Positions 2,248 to 31,793 of a DNA stretch of 32,941 nucleotides are shown here, piece after piece (positions within the stretch are counted from its first letter, which is position 1; every line of letters begins with the position of its first letter). The notes beneath the pieces were generated by a model. The model had not been told where the DNA came from and did not search any database. It was given only the letters and a program-made list of their open reading frames with translations. The translations under genes and the position numbers were made by a program. This DNA is from Thermodesulfovibrio aggregans (GTDB lineage Bacteria; Nitrospirota; Thermodesulfovibrionia; Thermodesulfovibrionales; Thermodesulfovibrionaceae): contig NZ_BCNO01000001.1 in NCBI RefSeq assembly GCF_001514535.1, positions 867,449 to 900,389 of the forward strand. The letters are read 5' to 3'.

Positions 2248-3357
2248 ATGTGTAGACTGGCAGCTATAACTTCATCAAAATATTTTTCGCCAATGGAAAA
2301 CATTCTTGCCCTTGAGACAATGAAAGAAGGGCACGATGGCTCTGGGCTTGGTCTTACACTTAAAGACCTTGGTGGTGAGTTTAAAGATTTGAAAGAATAT
2401 CCAATTCTTTCAGGAATATGCTCAAAAAAAGGTAGAGAGACTCTTGATGCCTATATGGATGAAATGGGCTTTAAGCTTCTTTACAGATGGAGGCCTAAAA
2501 TAAAGCCTGTTAAGGGAATTGTTGCAAGAGATTTTTATTTTGCCAGTGTTTATGACTATCCTGAGGAATGGAAAGACAAACCCTTTGAAGAAAAAGAACA
2601 GCTTCTTATGAATATAAGATTAACCCTGCGAAAAATGGGTGAAGCTGATGAATCTATCTTTGTTTTTTCTTTTTATCCTGATGTGATAACACTCAAAGAA
2701 GTGGGAGACCCTCTTGAGATTGCAGAATTTTTTGGACTTGATAAAGATATTCTCAAAGCTAAAATAATTTTTGCACAGGGCAGGCAGAACACCAACTATC
2801 AGATTTATCTTTATGCCTGCCATCCCTTTTTCCTTCAGGGATACTGCACAATGACAAATGGTGAAAACACAGCCTTTGTTCCTATAAGAGAGTTCCTGAT
2901 GAGCAGAGGGTTCCCGGGTTACATGGGATATAACTCTGACAGCGAGGTTTTTTGTCATATTCTTCATTATTGTATGAGACAGCTCAAATTTCCACTGACT
3001 TATTATAAAGATATAATCACTCCTTTAAAATGGGAAGAAATTGAGCAAAGACCTGACAGAGAAGCTCTTTCACTTTTAAAAATGTCCCTTCGTTCATTGT
3101 GTATTGATGGTCCTAACATGGTCATAGGGTTTATTCCTGATGGAACGTGCTTTATGGTTCAGGATGCTAAAAAACTCAGACCAGGTGTTGTTGGAGGAGT
3201 ACCGGGCAAATACGCATTAATGTCTGAACTTTGCGGATTAGATAAAGTTATTCCTGAAAGAGATGAATCAAAGGATATATATCCAATGAAGTATGATATG
3301 GTGATTGTATCACCTGGTGCAAAGGAGGTAAAAGTATGGAACCAGCTGCAGGCTTAA
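2248..3357 (+). CDS. glutamate synthase, class II glutamine amidotransferase subunit
   Basis: The 369-aa protein begins MCRLAAITSS, so Cys2 becomes the N-terminal nucleophile of an Ntn-type glutamine amidotransferase after methionine removal. It corresponds to the amidotransferase domain that heads bacterial GltB, here a separate protein as in archaeal-type split glutamate synthases. It would release ammonia from glutamine for the FMN subunit encoded next. Other visible family features are the HDGSGLGL segment near residue 30 and MTNGENTAF in the middle. The ATG follows GGAG at 8-nt spacing. The stop overlaps the start of the next gene by 22 nt, so the two are probably translationally coupled. 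GlxB of N-methylglutamate systems is a relative, but the FMN and GltD-type neighbours favour glutamate synthase. Confidence 0.88.
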   Translation: MCRLAAITSSKYFSPMENILALETMKEGHDGSGLGLTLKDLGGEFKDLKEYPILSGICSKKGRETLDAYMDEMGFKLLYRWRPKIKPVKGIVARDFYFASVYDYPEEWKDKPFEEKEQLLMNIRLTLRKMGEADESIFVFSFYPDVITLKEVGDPLEIAEFFGLDKDILKAKIIFAQGRQNTNYQIYLYACHPFFLQGYCTMTNGENTAFVPIREFLMSRGFPGYMGYNSDSEVFCHILHYCMRQLKFPLTYYKDIITPLKWEEIEQRPDREALSLLKMSLRSLCIDGPNMVIGFIPDGTCFMVQDAKKLRPGVVGGVPGKYALMSELCGLDKVIPERDESKDIYPMKYDMVIVSPGAKEVKVWNQLQA

Positions 3358-5003
3358 GGCTTGATTTTAACCATAAATTAACAATAAAAGAGTTTCCTTA
3401 CATAATTCGCTGGAGAGAAGACAGGTGTAAAAGATGCGGACAATGTACAGCTGTATGTCCTCAGGGAGCAATCAGACCGGCTGTTAAATATATGAGAGTT
3501 ATTGAATCAGGAGGAGATACTCCAAAGCCAAGGCCTGTAAGAAGAATTATTCATGTAATTGAACAGGTAAACGATATAGAGCATTACTGTACAGGCTGTG
3601 CCATCTGTGCCCTTGTTTGTCCCAACAATGCAATAGAGCCAGAGTATAATCCTCAGAATAAGTTTCTCTTTTATAAAAATCGTGGAGGAGAAGGATATAA
3701 AAGAGGCGGAAGGAGAAATGATCCAGGTGTGTCAACTCTTGACAGGCTTAAATTCACAAGAATCTCAATGCTTACAGACCCTGCTCTCGATGCTGGAAGA
3801 CACGAATTCAGGGTCCGCTCATACATTGGTAGAATTCTTCCTCCTGAGGAATTACCCCTTAAAGTTGAAAATGGCAGACTTGTTGTTGATAAATCTTCAG
3901 GAAAGTTTATTCCGCCTGTAAGGGAAATCTTTCCTATAATGATTGGAAGCATGTCCATTGGTGCACTTTCTCCAACAATGTGGGAAGGACTTGCTATGGG
4001 AGTTGCCTATCTAAATGAAGTTGAAGGAATTCCTGTTGTTATGTGTTCTGGAGAAGGAGGATTTCCACCAAGACTTCTTAAATCAAGATATGTAAAATAC
4101 TTTATTTTGCAAATTGCCTCAGGTTATTTTGGCTGGGACAGCATAATTCATACTTTACCGTATATGACTGAAGACCCGGCAGCAATAGAAATAAAATACG
4201 GTCAGGGTGCGAAACCAGGAGATGGTGGATTGTTGATGGCTCCAAAGGTTATAAAATTGATTGCAGAAATAAGAGGAGTTCCTCAATTTGTAGACCTTCC
4301 TTCACCACCAACTCATCAAACAAAGTACTCAATTGAAGAATCTGTTATGAAGATGATTCAGTCAATGTCAATGGCTTTTGGCTTCAGGGTACCGGTTTAT
4401 CCAAAAATTTCTGGGACCAGGACTGCAAAGGCTGTGCTTAACAATCTTGCAAGAAATCCCTATGCTGCAGCACTTTGCATAGATGGTGAAGACGGTGGCA
4501 CAGGTGCAGCATACAATGTTTCTCTTGACAAAATGGGACATCCAATTGCATCAAACATTAGAGAGTGCTATCTTGACCTTGTAAAACAGGGCAAACAGAA
4601 CGAACTTCCACTTATTGCTGCAGGAGGAATCGGCAAAAAGGGAAATCTTGCAGCAAATGCAGCAGCGCTCATTATGCTTGGTGCCTCAGCAGTTGCTGTT
4701 GGAAAATACATAATGCAGGCAACTGCTGACTGTCTTGGCGATGAATACAACCGTTGCAATATATGTAACACAGGAAAATGTCCAAGAGGAATCACAACTC
4801 AAGACCCTAAGCTTTACAGGCGTCTTGATCCTGATAAAGTTGCAGAGAGGCTGGTAGAAGTATTTAAAGCTGCTGATGTAGAGCTTCGTAAGATATTTGC
4901 ACCAATGGGAAGAAGCACAGAACTTCCAATTGGAATGTCTGATGGACTAAGTATAGATGATAAAGCAATGGCAGAGAGGTTGGAGATAAGCTATGCCTGC
5001 TAA
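3336..5003 (+). CDS. glutamate synthase, ferredoxin-like plus FMN-binding subunit (GltB2 type)
   Basis: The 555-aa protein carries the catalytic alpha/beta-barrel that reduces 2-iminoglutarate, formed from 2-oxoglutarate and ammonia, to glutamate. The N-terminus holds two [4Fe-4S] motifs: Cys31/34/37/41 in CKRCGQCTAVCP and, near residue 85, CTGCAICALVCP. The FMN/substrate core follows, with GEGGFPPRLLKS, AKPGDGGLLMAPKV, SPPTHQTKYS and DGEDGGTGAA. The late cysteines in CNICNTGKCPRGITTQ match the [3Fe-4S] site of GltB. It lacks both the amidotransferase and GXGXG domains, which the flanking genes supply. The ATG at 3336 lies inside the previous gene and is preceded by AAGGAGG. The stop overlaps the next start by 11 nt. 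The ferredoxin-like part suggests that electrons arrive through iron-sulfur clusters. Confidence 0.93.
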   Translation: MEPAAGLRLDFNHKLTIKEFPYIIRWREDRCKRCGQCTAVCPQGAIRPAVKYMRVIESGGDTPKPRPVRRIIHVIEQVNDIEHYCTGCAICALVCPNNAIEPEYNPQNKFLFYKNRGGEGYKRGGRRNDPGVSTLDRLKFTRISMLTDPALDAGRHEFRVRSYIGRILPPEELPLKVENGRLVVDKSSGKFIPPVREIFPIMIGSMSIGALSPTMWEGLAMGVAYLNEVEGIPVVMCSGEGGFPPRLLKSRYVKYFILQIASGYFGWDSIIHTLPYMTEDPAAIEIKYGQGAKPGDGGLLMAPKVIKLIAEIRGVPQFVDLPSPPTHQTKYSIEESVMKMIQSMSMAFGFRVPVYPKISGTRTAKAVLNNLARNPYAAALCIDGEDGGTGAAYNVSLDKMGHPIASNIRECYLDLVKQGKQNELPLIAAGGIGKKGNLAANAAALIMLGASAVAVGKYIMQATADCLGDEYNRCNICNTGKCPRGITTQDPKLYRRLDPDKVAERLVEVFKAADVELRKIFAPMGRSTELPIGMSDGLSIDDKAMAERLEISYAC

Positions 5004-7410
5004 GAAAACAACACAAAGAGAAATGCCAAAAATTGGCTTACATGAAACCCTTATACCATATGAAGAAGTGGTAAAATGGGTTGATGAAAAATCTGTAATT
5101 ATTCATGGAAATGTAAAAGGAAGAAGGATTCCTTCAAGAATTCTTGAGGAATACATTCAGGAAGCTGTCAGAGAAGGTGCAAGAAATTTACATGTCTATG
5201 CCGATGGTCAACATGGAATTGGTGGAAGAATATATCCAAGAGGTGAGACTGTAAAAGTTACAGTTGAAGGACCTGTTGGACAGAGATGTGGTTCAATGGG
5301 AATGTTCGGAACAGAGATAGTGGTAAAAAATGGTGTTTCCGATGATGTTGGATGGCTTAACTGTGGGGCAAAGATTACAGTTTTGGGAGATGCAACAAAT
5401 GGAGCATGGAATGCTGCTGCACAGGGAATTCTCTATGTTCAGGGAAGTGGCGGTGCAAGATGTGACACAATGACAAAACACAATCCAAGATTTGATCCCC
5501 CTCAGTCATGGTATTTCAGAGATGTGGGAGACTCTTTTGCTGAGTTTAAAGCTGGTGGGATCGCGGTTGTCTGCGGAGTAAATCCGCGAAATCCAAGAAC
5601 AGTGCTTGGATACAGACCGTGTGTTGGAATGGTTGGAGGAATTATCTATTTCCGTGGCAGAATTGAGGGTTACAGTGAAAGAGATGTAAAACTTCTGGAA
5701 CTCAGTGAACAGGACTGGCAGTGGTTATGTGAAAATCTTAAGCCATTTCTTACTGCCATTGACAGAATGGATTACTATGATGAACTCACAAAAGATATCG
5801 GGCAATGGCATAAACTTGTCCCATATACACCACAGGAAAGAAGAAGGAGAAGATGGTTTAAGATTAGCATGGAGGAATTCAGAAAAAACTACTGGGAAAA
5901 AGAAGTTGGACAGGGAGGAATTTTTGCAGAATACATTGACCACGAACCAACTGTTATACCATACATTGTAACTGGAAAATATCGTAGATTTAAGCCTGTT
6001 TGGGCAAATGAAAAATATGCACCACCCTGTGCATATAGCTGTCCAACAAATATACCAACGCATAAGAGAACAGCACTTATAAGACTTGGAAAAGTTAAAG
6101 AGGCATTAGAACTTGTTCTTGAGTACAGCCCTCTTCCTGCCACAGTTTGTGGGATGATTTGTCCAAATCTTTGTATGCAGGCATGCACTCGTGGAAGAAT
6201 TGATGCTCCTATTTCTGCAAAAGAGCTTGGTAAAGCTTCAGCTTTGCTTCCTCCTCCAAAGAAGGCAGAGCCAACAGGACACAAAGTTGCAGTAATTGGT
6301 GCAGGACCTGCTGGAATGTCTGTTGCATGGCAACTAAGCCTTAAAGGACATACTGTAACAGTATATGAAGCAACAGACAAAATTGGTGGGAAAATAGAGC
6401 TTTGTATCCCTGAGCACAGACTTGACAAAAGAATACTTCACATGGAAATAGAAAGATTTAAGGAAGTTGTTCAAGATATTCGTCTTAATACACGGGTTAC
6501 AAAAGAGCTTTTTGAAACAATACGTAAAGAAAACGAATTTGTTGTAATAGCGGTTGGAGCACACAAACCAAGAAAAATTCCTTTCCCTGGCTCAGAGCAT
6601 GCTATCTCAGCCTATGAATTTTTAAGGGCAATAAATGAAGGTAAAACCTTTGATCTTAAAGAAAAAAAAGTGGTAATAATTGGTGCTGGTAATGTTGGAA
6701 TGGATGCTGCGGTGGAAGCTTACCTGTGTGGAGCAGAAAAAGTAACTGCAGTTGATATTCAAAAACCAGCATCTTTCGGAGCAGAGCTTGAACGGGCACA
6801 ACAGAAGGGTGTTGAAATCCTCTGGCCAAAGTTTACTGAAAAGTATGTTCCCGAGGAAAAGAAAATATACTTCAAGGATGGAACAACTCTTGATGCAGAT
6901 TTTGTAATTATGGCAATAGGTGATATGCCTGACCTTGATTTTATTCAGCCACAGATTCATACTGAAAAGGGCTGGGTTGTTATAAATGAATTTTTCCAGA
7001 CTTCAGATCCAAAAGTTTACGCAATTGGTGATGTAACAGGCTTAGGACTTGTAACTCATGCAATTGGGCATGGAAGAATTCTTGCTCAATATCTACATGG
7101 AGAATTGATGCATGCACCTGTAACAAGGGATTTAAGGCAGAGAATACCCTATGAAAAAATCAAACTTGACTACTATGAAAGATGCCGTGCTACATCTTCC
7201 CTTGAGCAGGAGGCAGAAAGGTGTCTCAGTTGTGGCTCATGCAGGGATTGCCACATGTGTGAAATGACCTGTTACTGGGGTGCAATAAGCAGAGTGGAAA
7301 AACCTGATGGAAGATATGAGTATGTGGTTGATGACAATAAATGCATTGCCTGTGGCTTCTGTGTCGGAATATGTCCCTGCGGTGTGTGGGAGATGGTTGA
7401 GAATATTTAA
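4993..7410 (+). CDS. glutamate synthase, fused GXGXG domain, GltD oxidoreductase and ferredoxin
   Basis: The 805-aa fusion completes the split glutamate synthase. Residues about 20-270 form the GXGXG beta-helix domain normally at the C-terminus of GltB (glycine-rich GQHGIGGRIYPRGE, VLGDATNGAWNAAAQG). Residues about 350-410 carry GltD-type cysteines (CAYSCPTNIP, CGMICPNLCMQACTRGRID). From about 430 there is an FAD site (VAVIGAGPAGMS) and from about 558 a pyridine nucleotide site (VVIIGAGNVGMDAA), then YAIGDVTGLG closing the FAD domain. The tail, about 743 to the end, adds two clusters: CLSCGSCRDCHMCEMTC and CIACGFCVGICPCG. It would take electrons from NAD(P)H and pass them to the FMN subunit. 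A strong terminator follows. The start overlaps the upstream gene. Confidence 0.92.
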   Translation: MPAKKTTQREMPKIGLHETLIPYEEVVKWVDEKSVIIHGNVKGRRIPSRILEEYIQEAVREGARNLHVYADGQHGIGGRIYPRGETVKVTVEGPVGQRCGSMGMFGTEIVVKNGVSDDVGWLNCGAKITVLGDATNGAWNAAAQGILYVQGSGGARCDTMTKHNPRFDPPQSWYFRDVGDSFAEFKAGGIAVVCGVNPRNPRTVLGYRPCVGMVGGIIYFRGRIEGYSERDVKLLELSEQDWQWLCENLKPFLTAIDRMDYYDELTKDIGQWHKLVPYTPQERRRRRWFKISMEEFRKNYWEKEVGQGGIFAEYIDHEPTVIPYIVTGKYRRFKPVWANEKYAPPCAYSCPTNIPTHKRTALIRLGKVKEALELVLEYSPLPATVCGMICPNLCMQACTRGRIDAPISAKELGKASALLPPPKKAEPTGHKVAVIGAGPAGMSVAWQLSLKGHTVTVYEATDKIGGKIELCIPEHRLDKRILHMEIERFKEVVQDIRLNTRVTKELFETIRKENEFVVIAVGAHKPRKIPFPGSEHAISAYEFLRAINEGKTFDLKEKKVVIIGAGNVGMDAAVEAYLCGAEKVTAVDIQKPASFGAELERAQQKGVEILWPKFTEKYVPEEKKIYFKDGTTLDADFVIMAIGDMPDLDFIQPQIHTEKGWVVINEFFQTSDPKVYAIGDVTGLGLVTHAIGHGRILAQYLHGELMHAPVTRDLRQRIPYEKIKLDYYERCRATSSLEQEAERCLSCGSCRDCHMCEMTCYWGAISRVEKPDGRYEYVVDDNKCIACGFCVGICPCGVWEMVENI

Positions 7411-7429: not shown

Positions 7430-7460
7430 GGCTACTAACTATCAGTTAGTAGCCTTTTTT
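7430..7460 (+). terminator. rho-independent terminator of the glt operon
   Basis: GGCTACTAACT and AGTTAGTAGCC form a perfect 11-bp stem with a 3-nt loop, followed directly by TTTTTT. It lies 20 nt past the last glt gene. Confidence 0.93.
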
Positions 7461-7570
7461 ATAAAATTGCTCAATCTAAAATGATTTCTGTTATCTTTTC
7501 TTTAGCTTTTACCACATTCCATTCAATCTTAGTATATAATTGATTATAATCTATCCATTGGGAGGAAAAA

Positions 7571-8260
7571 ATGAGGAAAACGGAAAGTTTTACAAGAAGG
7601 GAATTTATAAAAGCTGCCGGGATAGGTGCTGCATTGGTTTTTGCTGGTAAATGGGGAATTCATTCAATAGCATGGGCTGGTTCAGATAAAAGAACGCTCA
7701 GGATGATTCTTGTTGATTACAGTAAATGCACAGGATGCAGAACCTGTGAGGCTGTATGCTCTTCATGGAATAATCCCGTAACAATTAATGGTGAAAAAAT
7801 TCCAGGGCTTGGGAATCCAGTTTATTCAAACATAAAAGTTGTAAGTTTCAATCCAGATGTTGATGTCCCAAATGTGTGTGCCATGTGTCCTGATGCACCA
7901 TGTGTAAATTCATGTCCTGTTGAGCCAGACCCTAAAACAGGAATAAAAGCTCTTTACAGAGATAAAAAAACTTTGACAATAAAAAATGACCCTGCCCGTT
8001 GCATAGGCTGTGGAAACTGTGCCCGAGCCTGTGCTGAACAGAGAAAAGGTGTTATAGAGCTTGACTCAAAAACAGGCAAACCAAGAGGAATCTGTACTCT
8101 TTGTAATGGTGACCCCCAATGTGTAAAACACTGCCCCTTTGATGCTCTTTCCTATGTTGAGGTTAATGAAAAACAAAAATTTTATGGACTATCACCAGAA
8201 AAAATTGCCTCTATACTGGCAAAACATTGGTATGACACGGATTTAGGAGGTGTTAAATGA
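7571..8260 (+). CDS. Tat-signal four-cluster ferredoxin, AOR partner subunit
   Basis: The 229-aa protein begins with a twin-arginine signal. Arg9-Arg10 sit in TRREFIK, followed by a hydrophobic stretch and a likely cleavage site after AWA at about residue 36. The mature part has four cysteine groups typical of DmsB/HybA/AorA-like proteins: CTGCRTCEAVC (53-63), CAMCPDAPCVNSCP, CIGCGNCARAC and CTLCNGDPQCVKHCP. It should hold four [4Fe-4S] clusters and act as an electron wire for the AOR protein encoded next, whose start overlaps its stop by 4 nt. A GGGAGG ribosome site lies 6 nt before the ATG. An exported partner for an AOR-family enzyme would be unusual. Whether the signal is used for export or retained is not shown by the sequence. 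Confidence 0.9.
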   Translation: MRKTESFTRREFIKAAGIGAALVFAGKWGIHSIAWAGSDKRTLRMILVDYSKCTGCRTCEAVCSSWNNPVTINGEKIPGLGNPVYSNIKVVSFNPDVDVPNVCAMCPDAPCVNSCPVEPDPKTGIKALYRDKKTLTIKNDPARCIGCGNCARACAEQRKGVIELDSKTGKPRGICTLCNGDPQCVKHCPFDALSYVEVNEKQKFYGLSPEKIASILAKHWYDTDLGGVK

Positions 8261-10059
8261 AGATAAAAGGATATCACGGTAAAATACTGAAAATAGACCT
8301 TACAACAGGTAAAATTGAAAAAATAGCTCTCAAAGAGGAAGACCTTGTTAAATTTGTTGGTGGACGGGGTCTTGGGGTGAAACTACTCTGGGATAATCTA
8401 AAAAAACCAGGAGTTGATCCCCTTTCACCTGAAAATCCACTTATCTTTATGACAGGACCTTTTTCAGGCTTTTCAGTTCCTTCAGCCTCAAGAACATGTG
8501 TGGTTACAAAATCTCCAATAACATCACCTCTTCGCTCTCCCTATCCTCATGCATCTACAGTAACCTACTCAAATGTTGGAGGTTTCTTTGGTCCTGAGCT
8601 GAAAATGGCAGGCTATGATGGAATTATGATTACAGGAAAAGCAAATGAACTATGCTACATCGTCATAGAAGACGATAAGGTATATATTCGTGATGCAAAA
8701 AAATTTAAAGGTATGCGCACAGATGCTTTTGACAAGGCGTTCCTTAAAGAGCTTGGAGACAGAAGATTTAAAACTGTATATATCGGACCTGCAGGTGAAA
8801 ATCTCGTTCGTTATGCAAGCATACTTCATACATCTGCCCGTGCTGCAGGAAGAGGTGGAGTGGGATGTGTGATGGGCTCAAAAAACTTAAAAGCAATAGC
8901 AGTAAAAGGTAGCATACAGCCTGATGTTGCCAATCATAAAAAATTTATCGCTATGGTTGAGAAAGCCCGATTAGCTCTTAAAAACTCTCCAAATACAAAA
9001 AACTGGAGGGATTACGGAACCGCTGGATATATTGTAAAAAGTAGTGATCAGGGTACAGAGACTGTTCGTAACTTCCGAGAGGGAACTTTCCCTGAAGCAT
9101 ACAAAATTGGTGCAGAAACTGCAAGAAGAGATGTATGGGTAAGAAACATTGCCTGTATGTACTGTCCTCTGGCATGTAAAAAAAGTGGACGTACAAAGGG
9201 TAAATATGGTGGAATTGTCCATGATGGACCAGAGTATGAAACAGGTACAATGCTTGGTTCAAATCTTTTGATATCTGATATGGCTGGCTTACTTAAGATA
9301 ATCTACAATGTGGATGATCTCGGGCTTGATGCTATTTCAACTGGAGCAGTGATTGGCTTTCTCATGGAAGCCTATGAAAAAGGTATTATTGATCAGAAAT
9401 TCCTTGACGGAATTGATCTTAAATGGGGAAGTGTAGACGCAACTCTTGCCATTATAGAAAAAATCGCATACAGGGATGGAGTTGGAGACCTTGCATCAAA
9501 GGGAGTAAAAGTGCTCTCTCAAAAAATAGGACAGGGAAGCGAAAAGTTTGCCATTCATGTTAAAGGTCTTGAACTTGCTGCTCACAATATTCAGGCAAAT
9601 CCGCCAAGAGCTCTATGCTATGCCACAGCAAACAGGGGTGGATGCCATCTTAATGGAGACAGTGTAACCATGCAGAATTTCAGAGCAATGATTGACTCAA
9701 CAGGAGTTTGTTTTTTTGCTGCCATGGATAGTGTTTATGAGGAACCATTGATTTCCCTTCTAAGTGCAATCACAGGAATTGATTATGATAAGGCTGAATT
9801 TTTAAAAGCCGGTGAAAGAGTTTTTAATCTTGAAAAGATGTTCAATTATCGTGAAGGATTCCGTCGTGAAGATGACTGGCTACCTGATAGATTTTTTGAA
9901 GATGCCTTTACCATAGGACCTAAAAAAGGTGCTGTACTTGATAGAGATAAATTCCGTGAAATTCTCACTCAATATTACAAAGAAAGAGGCTGGGATGCGC
10001 AAACCACAAAGCCTGCAGAGGCAAAACTAAAAGAGCTTGGTCTGGATAAGATTACTTAA
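8257..10059 (+). CDS. aldehyde ferredoxin oxidoreductase family (tungsten) enzyme
   Basis: A 600-aa member of the AOR family, which binds a tungsto-bispterin cofactor and one [4Fe-4S] cluster and oxidises aldehydes to acids, or the reverse. The N-terminal domain shows GYHGKILKIDLTTGKI, VGGRGLGVKLLWD and FMTGPFSG, followed by the ARAAGRGGVGCVMGSKNLKA pterin-binding segment. The cluster cysteines are Cys300, Cys303 and Cys307 in CMYCPLAC and Cys485 in DSTGVCFFA, the same layout as Pyrococcus AOR. The length is close to the 600-aa norm. No signal peptide is present, unlike its ferredoxin partner. TTAGGAGG precedes the ATG, which overlaps the upstream stop. The exact aldehyde cannot be told, so I give no symbol. 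Benzoyl/aryl, acetaldehyde or glyceraldehyde-3-phosphate activities all occur in the wider family. Confidence 0.92.
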   Translation: MKIKGYHGKILKIDLTTGKIEKIALKEEDLVKFVGGRGLGVKLLWDNLKKPGVDPLSPENPLIFMTGPFSGFSVPSASRTCVVTKSPITSPLRSPYPHASTVTYSNVGGFFGPELKMAGYDGIMITGKANELCYIVIEDDKVYIRDAKKFKGMRTDAFDKAFLKELGDRRFKTVYIGPAGENLVRYASILHTSARAAGRGGVGCVMGSKNLKAIAVKGSIQPDVANHKKFIAMVEKARLALKNSPNTKNWRDYGTAGYIVKSSDQGTETVRNFREGTFPEAYKIGAETARRDVWVRNIACMYCPLACKKSGRTKGKYGGIVHDGPEYETGTMLGSNLLISDMAGLLKIIYNVDDLGLDAISTGAVIGFLMEAYEKGIIDQKFLDGIDLKWGSVDATLAIIEKIAYRDGVGDLASKGVKVLSQKIGQGSEKFAIHVKGLELAAHNIQANPPRALCYATANRGGCHLNGDSVTMQNFRAMIDSTGVCFFAAMDSVYEEPLISLLSAITGIDYDKAEFLKAGERVFNLEKMFNYREGFRREDDWLPDRFFEDAFTIGPKKGAVLDRDKFREILTQYYKERGWDAQTTKPAEAKLKELGLDKIT

Positions 10060-31607: not shown

Positions 31608-31793
31608 TTAATAACCAAGCATTGGATTAAATATTTTTTTATTTGCTCCACAGAGAGGACAAACCCAGTCTTCAGGCAAATCTTCAAAGGGAACTCCAGG
31701 CGGGATTTTCCCCTTTTTGTCTCCTTTTTGAGTATCATAAATATATCCACATCTTCCACAGACATAAGGAATCATCTTCTTGTCATTGTCCAT
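31608..31793 (-). CDS. rubredoxin
   Basis: A 61-aa one-iron electron carrier. The four iron ligands are Cys12/Cys15 in [11 protein letters not shown] and Cys45/Cys48 in DWVCPLCGA, and the [13 protein letters not shown] loop is conserved. I chose ATG at 31793 because AGGAGAAG lies just upstream. The frame stays open to 31838 but the added residues are basic and unlike rubredoxins. It is divergent from the peroxiredoxin gene and may feed electrons to peroxide or superoxide reduction, a common use in anaerobes. Its stop lies 6 nt from that of the photolyase. Confidence 0.95.

Follow-up and report, generated by a model that had tools for sequence, protein, structure and literature searches.

The Tat system translocates folded proteins, and cofactor-bearing enzymes that have no signal of their own ride across the membrane on a tagged partner. 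In Escherichia coli PaoABC, a Tat-tagged Fe-S subunit carries a signal-less Mo subunit to the periplasm, as shown with a tatC mutant and subunit deletions (PMC4273604), and the enzyme oxidises aldehydes there. E. coli hydrogenase-2 (HybOC) is a two-subunit Tat hitchhiker that likewise combines a tagged Fe-S subunit with an untagged catalytic subunit. Tungsten-family oxidoreductases (WORs) were sorted into five classes in 2026, and a Tat-tagged small subunit (WorS) was stated for clade 41 (Class V) only (PMC13328260). In Class V, WorS has a Tat signal and/or a transmembrane domain, and at least one subunit is present beyond WorS and the catalytic subunit WorL; Cetobacterium somerae CsWOR41 showed no activity on 46 aldehydes, and that paper assigns the class no function (PMC13328260). 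Class II WORs, such as Pyrococcus furiosus ASOR/WOR5 and C. bescii GOR, are two-gene units with a four-[4Fe-4S] WorS and no further subunit; they are cytoplasmic and ferredoxin-linked and lack a Tat signal.

Here we describe worSL, a gene pair of Thermodesulfovibrio aggregans that on balance probably encodes a periplasmic aldehyde oxidoreductase made of two subunits and belonging to the tungsten (AOR/WOR) family, with WorL exported as a hitchhiker on WorS. The pair resembles PaoABC and HybOC in its division between a tagged Fe-S subunit and an untagged catalytic one, whereas PaoABC belongs to the xanthine-oxidase family, with [2Fe-2S] and FAD subunits, and HybOC is an unrelated NiFe enzyme.

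Gene pair and surroundings

The window, meaning the whole 32,941-nt stretch of DNA analysed, corresponds to positions 867449-900389 of its contig in the T. aggregans genome (~2.0 Mb). In window coordinates, the features discussed below are:

7430-7454, plus strand: intrinsic terminator-like hairpin (11-bp stem, then TTTTTT) closing the upstream glutamate-synthase operon
7560-7565, plus strand: worS ribosome-binding site GGGAGG, read from the sequence
7571-8260, plus strand: worS, ORF of 229 aa with ATG start; small subunit of the four-[4Fe-4S] ferredoxin type with a Tat signal
7571-7678, plus strand: Tat signal (n-region, R9-R10-E-F-I-K, hydrophobic core, A34-W35-A36 cleavage site)
7727-8134, plus strand: four [4Fe-4S] binding sets (16 Cys, residues 53-188)
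8177-8233, plus strand: WorS C-terminal tail FYGLSPEKIA..L...WY, typical of the window family and absent from cytoplasmic-type WorS
8257-10059, plus strand: worL, ORF of 600 aa; AOR-family catalytic subunit without an export signal
9019-9021, plus strand: Thr255, aligned with PfAOR Thr243
9154-9177, plus strand: Cys300, Cys303 and Cys307, WorL [4Fe-4S] ligands, aligned with PfAOR Cys288/291/295
9238-9240, plus strand: Glu328, aligned with PfAOR Glu313; a metal-ligand Cys in clade 41
9583-9585, plus strand: His443, replacing PfAOR Tyr427 in the alignment
9646-9648, plus strand: His464, aligned with PfAOR His448
9709-9711, plus strand: Cys485, fourth WorL cluster ligand, aligned with PfAOR Cys494

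The two genes overlap by 4 nt (ATGA). An earlier sequence-only reading had described an AOR gene without a signal overlapping a ferredoxin gene, and its coordinates proved exact when the ORFs were re-read. Upstream of worSL lies a glutamate-synthase-type operon (2248-7410), and because the terminator-like hairpin ends that operon, worSL is probably a separate transcription unit. An unnamed 93-aa ORF lies downstream, as do an AAA_33 kinase-like gene and a phosphohexomutase gene on the opposite strand. The rest of the window is housekeeping in character (grpE-dnaK-dnaJ, polyamine and aromatic amino acid synthesis, zinc uptake). A small rubredoxin-like ORF was also seen on the minus strand (31620-31790), between a photolyase-like gene and a 1-Cys peroxiredoxin. 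No cytochrome, membrane or quinone subunit adjoins worSL in the window, which bears out the earlier statement that no membrane quinone subunit is encoded next to the pair, and no third subunit gene lies beside worSL in the window or adjacent to it in relatives within the genus.

Subunit architecture and active site

WorL is spanned from end to end by AFOR_N (E 1e-73, from residue 8) and AFOR_C (E 1e-116) domains. Since AFOR_N begins at residue 8, there is no space for an export signal, and the predicted model opens straight into the AOR fold. This AlphaFold model (mean pLDDT 90) is nearest to AOR, AmWOR1 and FOR, with benzoyl-CoA reductase BamB ranked below, and it superposes on 1aor with a TM-score of 0.92. 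The nearest solved folds, P. furiosus AOR (PfAOR, 1aor) and AmWOR1 (9mqx) of clade 87 (TM-score 0.92; 38% and 36% identity), share with WorL identical cluster ligands and most second-shell residues. They differ in having Tyr427 where WorL has His443, and in their settings, as PfAOR is a single-subunit cytoplasmic enzyme and AmWOR1 belongs to a cytoplasmic electron-bifurcating complex.

All four [4Fe-4S] Cys ligands expected of the AOR/WOR family are present in WorL (residues 300, 303, 307 and 485). Three of the four second-shell residues of AOR are kept, namely the equivalents of Thr243, Glu313 and His448, and the fourth, Tyr427, is exchanged for His443. Across the window family, by which we mean this pair and its Tat-tagged relatives, the Tyr427 position is His or Trp, and in the AOR of C. 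formicoaceticum this Tyr is likewise replaced by His (PMC12096430). Glu313 and His448 take part in the proposed mechanism of aldehyde oxidation; in YdhV, a Cys at the Glu313 position is a metal ligand and the AOR second shell is missing (PMC12096430).

The N-terminus of WorS reads MRKTESFTRREFIKAAGIGAALVFAGKWGIHSIAWAG. Reading the ORF confirmed the full twin-arginine signal (RREFIK, hydrophobic core, AWA) that had been attributed to the ferredoxin from the DNA alone. Its domain matches were to 4Fe-4S domains only, and all 16 cluster Cys residues were invariant among 22 aligned WorS relatives from five phyla. The best sequence matches among solved structures were the small subunits of AOR and WOR5 (8c0z_C, 6x6u_B); the predicted WorS model was weak (pLDDT 65), too weak for a structure search. 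With 16 Cys for four [4Fe-4S] clusters encoded beside WorL, WorS agrees with the definition of Class II. It also has the Tat signal of Class V, although the further subunit of that class is not encoded beside worSL. The signal argues against a cytoplasmic ferredoxin as a Class II-type carrier, to judge from sequence.

Conservation of the Tat-tagged pair

Named genomes were scanned with a five-orthologue alignment, which yielded 80 loci. Counting four loci added later, 37 loci from five phyla had a WorL 44-88% identical and readable upstream DNA, and a twin-arginine WorS was found directly 5' of WorL in every case, 36 with RR and one with RK (L051, whose near relative L227 has RR). The two genes often overlap or nearly so. 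Hosts include Thermodesulfovibrio, Geobacteraceae, Desulfobacterales and other Desulfobacterota, Aminicenantes/Acidobacteriota, Zixibacteria and Bacteroidales. A stricter count of RR or RK followed by a hydrophobic core gave 32 of 32 for the window family, 12 of 13 for clade 41 and none of 36 for other WorS; the 37 loci comprise these 32, L060 and four Acidobacteriota loci added later. One of the 36 distant, signal-less WorS comes from the T. aggregans genome itself, which holds two further WOR genes, one of them with this WorS. WorLs at ~37-40% identity in the same Acidobacteriota sample had no Tat-tagged WorS. The earlier reading had proposed a survey of AOR neighbours and had named loss of the motif in orthologous pairs as evidence against it; such loss was not seen in any of the readable loci, and a chance or nonfunctional motif was rejected on that ground. 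Pairwise identities of WorS and WorL were correlated (r = 0.96, 30 loci), a value to which shared ancestry contributes.

The cleavage region varies with the host, being AWA in Thermodesulfovibrio and Geobacteraceae, SAQ in Aminicenantes and Zixibacteria, and a lipobox (LAGC) in one Desulfobacterales member (L041), while the WorS alignment showed no cleavage site in Bacteroidales members. The T. aggregans genome encodes TatC (E 6e-72) and two TatA/E-type proteins. When Tat motifs were sought by DNA pattern across the whole genome, matches were fewer than in the control, and this search was dropped.

Gene context and proposed function

At Geobacteraceae-type loci, a zinc alcohol dehydrogenase, with the Ahr aldehyde reductase as its best match (below cut-off), lies directly 5' of worS (9/9), preceded in at least six of the nine by an aldo-keto reductase. 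A divergent AraC_N regulator is present in eight of these nine loci, and a flavodoxin lies 3' of worL in four. The one regulator compared was 36% identical over 253 residues to E. coli YqhC, which activates yqhD-dkgA in response to aldehydes (PMC6115493, PMC8262776). Taken with the active site, this aldehyde-response context points to a WOR that oxidises aldehydes outside the cytoplasm while the reductases act within it. The context was seen at Geobacteraceae-type loci only and is absent around worSL in Thermodesulfovibrio, so that we infer, by transfer from Geobacteraceae, a similar role there. Three proteins of the genome match PF13531, a tungstate/molybdate substrate-binding family that does not tell W from Mo.

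Two further neighbours were observed outside the genus. In five Bacteroidales loci (L044, L045, L046, L047, L054), a hydrophobic protein of 113-125 aa, apparently with several membrane helices and matching no Pfam family, is encoded ~10 nt before worS, making it a possible membrane partner; the search for a linked membrane subunit found such a small protein in Bacteroidales only. After worL in L041 (7909-8859), a gene for a Tat-lipoprotein of the EFR1 flavodoxin/ferredoxin type may encode a redox partner at that locus.

One subunit of the pair, WorS, has a Tat signal and its partner WorL has none, and hitchhiker export of WorL is in our analysis the best reading of this arrangement. WorS would carry the export tag for both proteins, which probably places the working enzyme beyond the inner membrane. 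While still in the cytoplasm, WorL would fold around its bis-metallopterin cofactor and [4Fe-4S] cluster and dock, once folded, on the four-cluster WorS; the complex would then pass through the Tat translocase by means of the WorS signal, which in Thermodesulfovibrio would probably be cut after AWA. In the periplasm, WorL would convert aldehyde and water to the acid, and two electrons would leave the W/Mo centre by way of the WorL cluster and then the WorS clusters, ending on an acceptor whose gene lies elsewhere. If export is real, free ferredoxin and NAD are unlikely acceptors, and because soluble ferredoxin and NAD are unavailable in the periplasm, a c-type cytochrome or a membrane redox complex would be the probable one. 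The likely role would be to remove reactive aldehydes before they enter the cytoplasm, with recovery of their electrons.

Relation to clade 41 and alternative readings

That the pair is an ordinary Class V enzyme of the YdhV/CsWOR41 kind is very improbable, even though both have a WorL and a four-cluster, Tat-tagged WorS predicted to lie on the periplasmic side, the tag being found in all but one of the clade-41 WorS examined. A phylogeny of 77 WorL sequences, built by quick search with SH-aLRT support and no bootstrap, separated the window family from clade 41 (E. coli YdhV, C. somerae and Desulfobacterota members) as two well-supported groups, with clade 41 on a branch of 1.64 substitutions. 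An approximately unbiased (AU) test did not reject a tree uniting the two (p 0.21; p 0.23 with L157, L166 and L169 added), so the Tat tag may have arisen either once, in an origin common to both groups, or twice. Other features keep the proteins apart: WorL has ~600 aa, compared with ~700 aa in clade 41, and its score on the YdhV model was 227 bits, where the cut-off is 868. At the positions of PfAOR Thr243 and Glu313, the window family has Thr and Glu, whereas clade 41 has Ala or Ser and the metal-ligand Cys, and the Class V enzymes (E. coli YdhVY, CsWOR41LS) come with at least one further subunit for which no gene adjoins worSL. Membership of WorL in clade 41 was rejected on the tree built here, its length, its YdhV score and its active site.

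Where the pair acts allows two other readings. One, unlikely in our estimate, leaves the Tat signal uncut, so that the exported pair remains attached to the cytoplasmic membrane on its outer side and hands electrons to a quinone-linked partner there. Bacteroidales members without a cleavage site, where membrane anchoring is possible, would suit it, as would the multi-helix protein encoded ~10 nt 5' of worS at five of their loci and the lipobox in L041; in Thermodesulfovibrio and Geobacteraceae, however, WorS has a good AxA site and the locus contains no gene for a membrane partner. The other, still less probable, has the signal unused or WorS exported alone, leaving WorL as a cytoplasmic ferredoxin-type enzyme like the Class II WORs. 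Characterised AORs with a WorS are indeed cytoplasmic (PMC13328260), and the other WorS-WorL pair of T. aggregans lacks a signal. Yet the signal is retained at every readable locus across five phyla, WorS exported alone would strip WorL of its partner, and in HybOC and PaoABC the tagged subunit stays unexported when its partner is missing (PMC4273604). Periplasmic export of the complete WorSL complex is the reading we prefer.

Several Tat-tagged or related WOR loci outside the window family were also observed. E. coli YdhY (L029), to which the WorS role in the Class V enzyme has been assigned, carries TRLEFL in place of a twin arginine, together with an LLGC lipobox; the clear Tat signal of the ydh operon sits on YdhX. 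In the Desulfobacterota clade-41 loci L174-L184, WorS has a C-terminal CxxCH haem-binding motif, which suggests a c-type haem on the small subunit and would fit a periplasmic location and a cytochrome-linked electron exit. A second, different Tat-tagged WorS-WorL pair was found near the L157 WOR (L185:3-2244), and L163 is another deep branch with a Tat-tagged WorS. With these last two, Tat-tagged WORs may have a wider spread than the window family and clade 41 alone.

Distribution and likely transfer

The window family occurs in 5 of 16 Thermodesulfovibrio genomes and was not found in any other Nitrospirota genus when 295 genomes of that phylum were searched. In 297-genome samples, at least ~2 genomes from Desulfobacterota and at least seven from the phylum of the Aminicenantes member carried it, counts that are lower bounds because the search scores few candidates per genome. 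The Thermodesulfovibrio sequences are sister to Geobacteraceae genes in the tree. This placement and the restriction to a single genus of Nitrospirota make horizontal transfer into Thermodesulfovibrio likely; as the base composition of worSL resembles that of the host, any such transfer would be old or ameliorated. In one incomplete genome (G007; L191, G007:C43, 1-2090), a worS remnant and worL are apparently split by ~1.9 kb with methyltransferase-like and other unrelated ORFs, which is either an insertion or a misassembly.

Significance

The earlier reading had called both an exported AOR and a membrane-anchored pair unusual. This applies only in part, as Tat-tagged Fe-S subunits with a signal-less partner are well known (HybOC, PaoABC; PMC4273604) and Tat-tagged WorS were described in 2026 (PMC13328260). 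As far as sequence can tell, what is new is a Tat-tagged WOR family outside clade 41 that combines an aldehyde-oxidase type active site with the lack of an adjacent further subunit. In the open-access literature, to which the search was limited, we found no Tat-tagged AOR described before from outside clade 41. A tentative proposal, somewhat short of probable, is that the family represents a second exported lineage of W/Mo oxidoreductases, independent of clade 41, in which a WorLS of the aldehyde-oxidase type and free of membrane subunits would act in the periplasm as an anaerobic counterpart of PaoABC and pass very low-potential electrons straight to periplasmic carriers.

The 2026 classification limits membrane-side (Class V) WORs to clade 41, and the Tat-tagged window family stands outside that limit. 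It offers a testable case, with culturable members in Geomonas and Geotalea, for what exported WORs oxidise and for how electrons at about -500 mV leave an AOR without ferredoxin.
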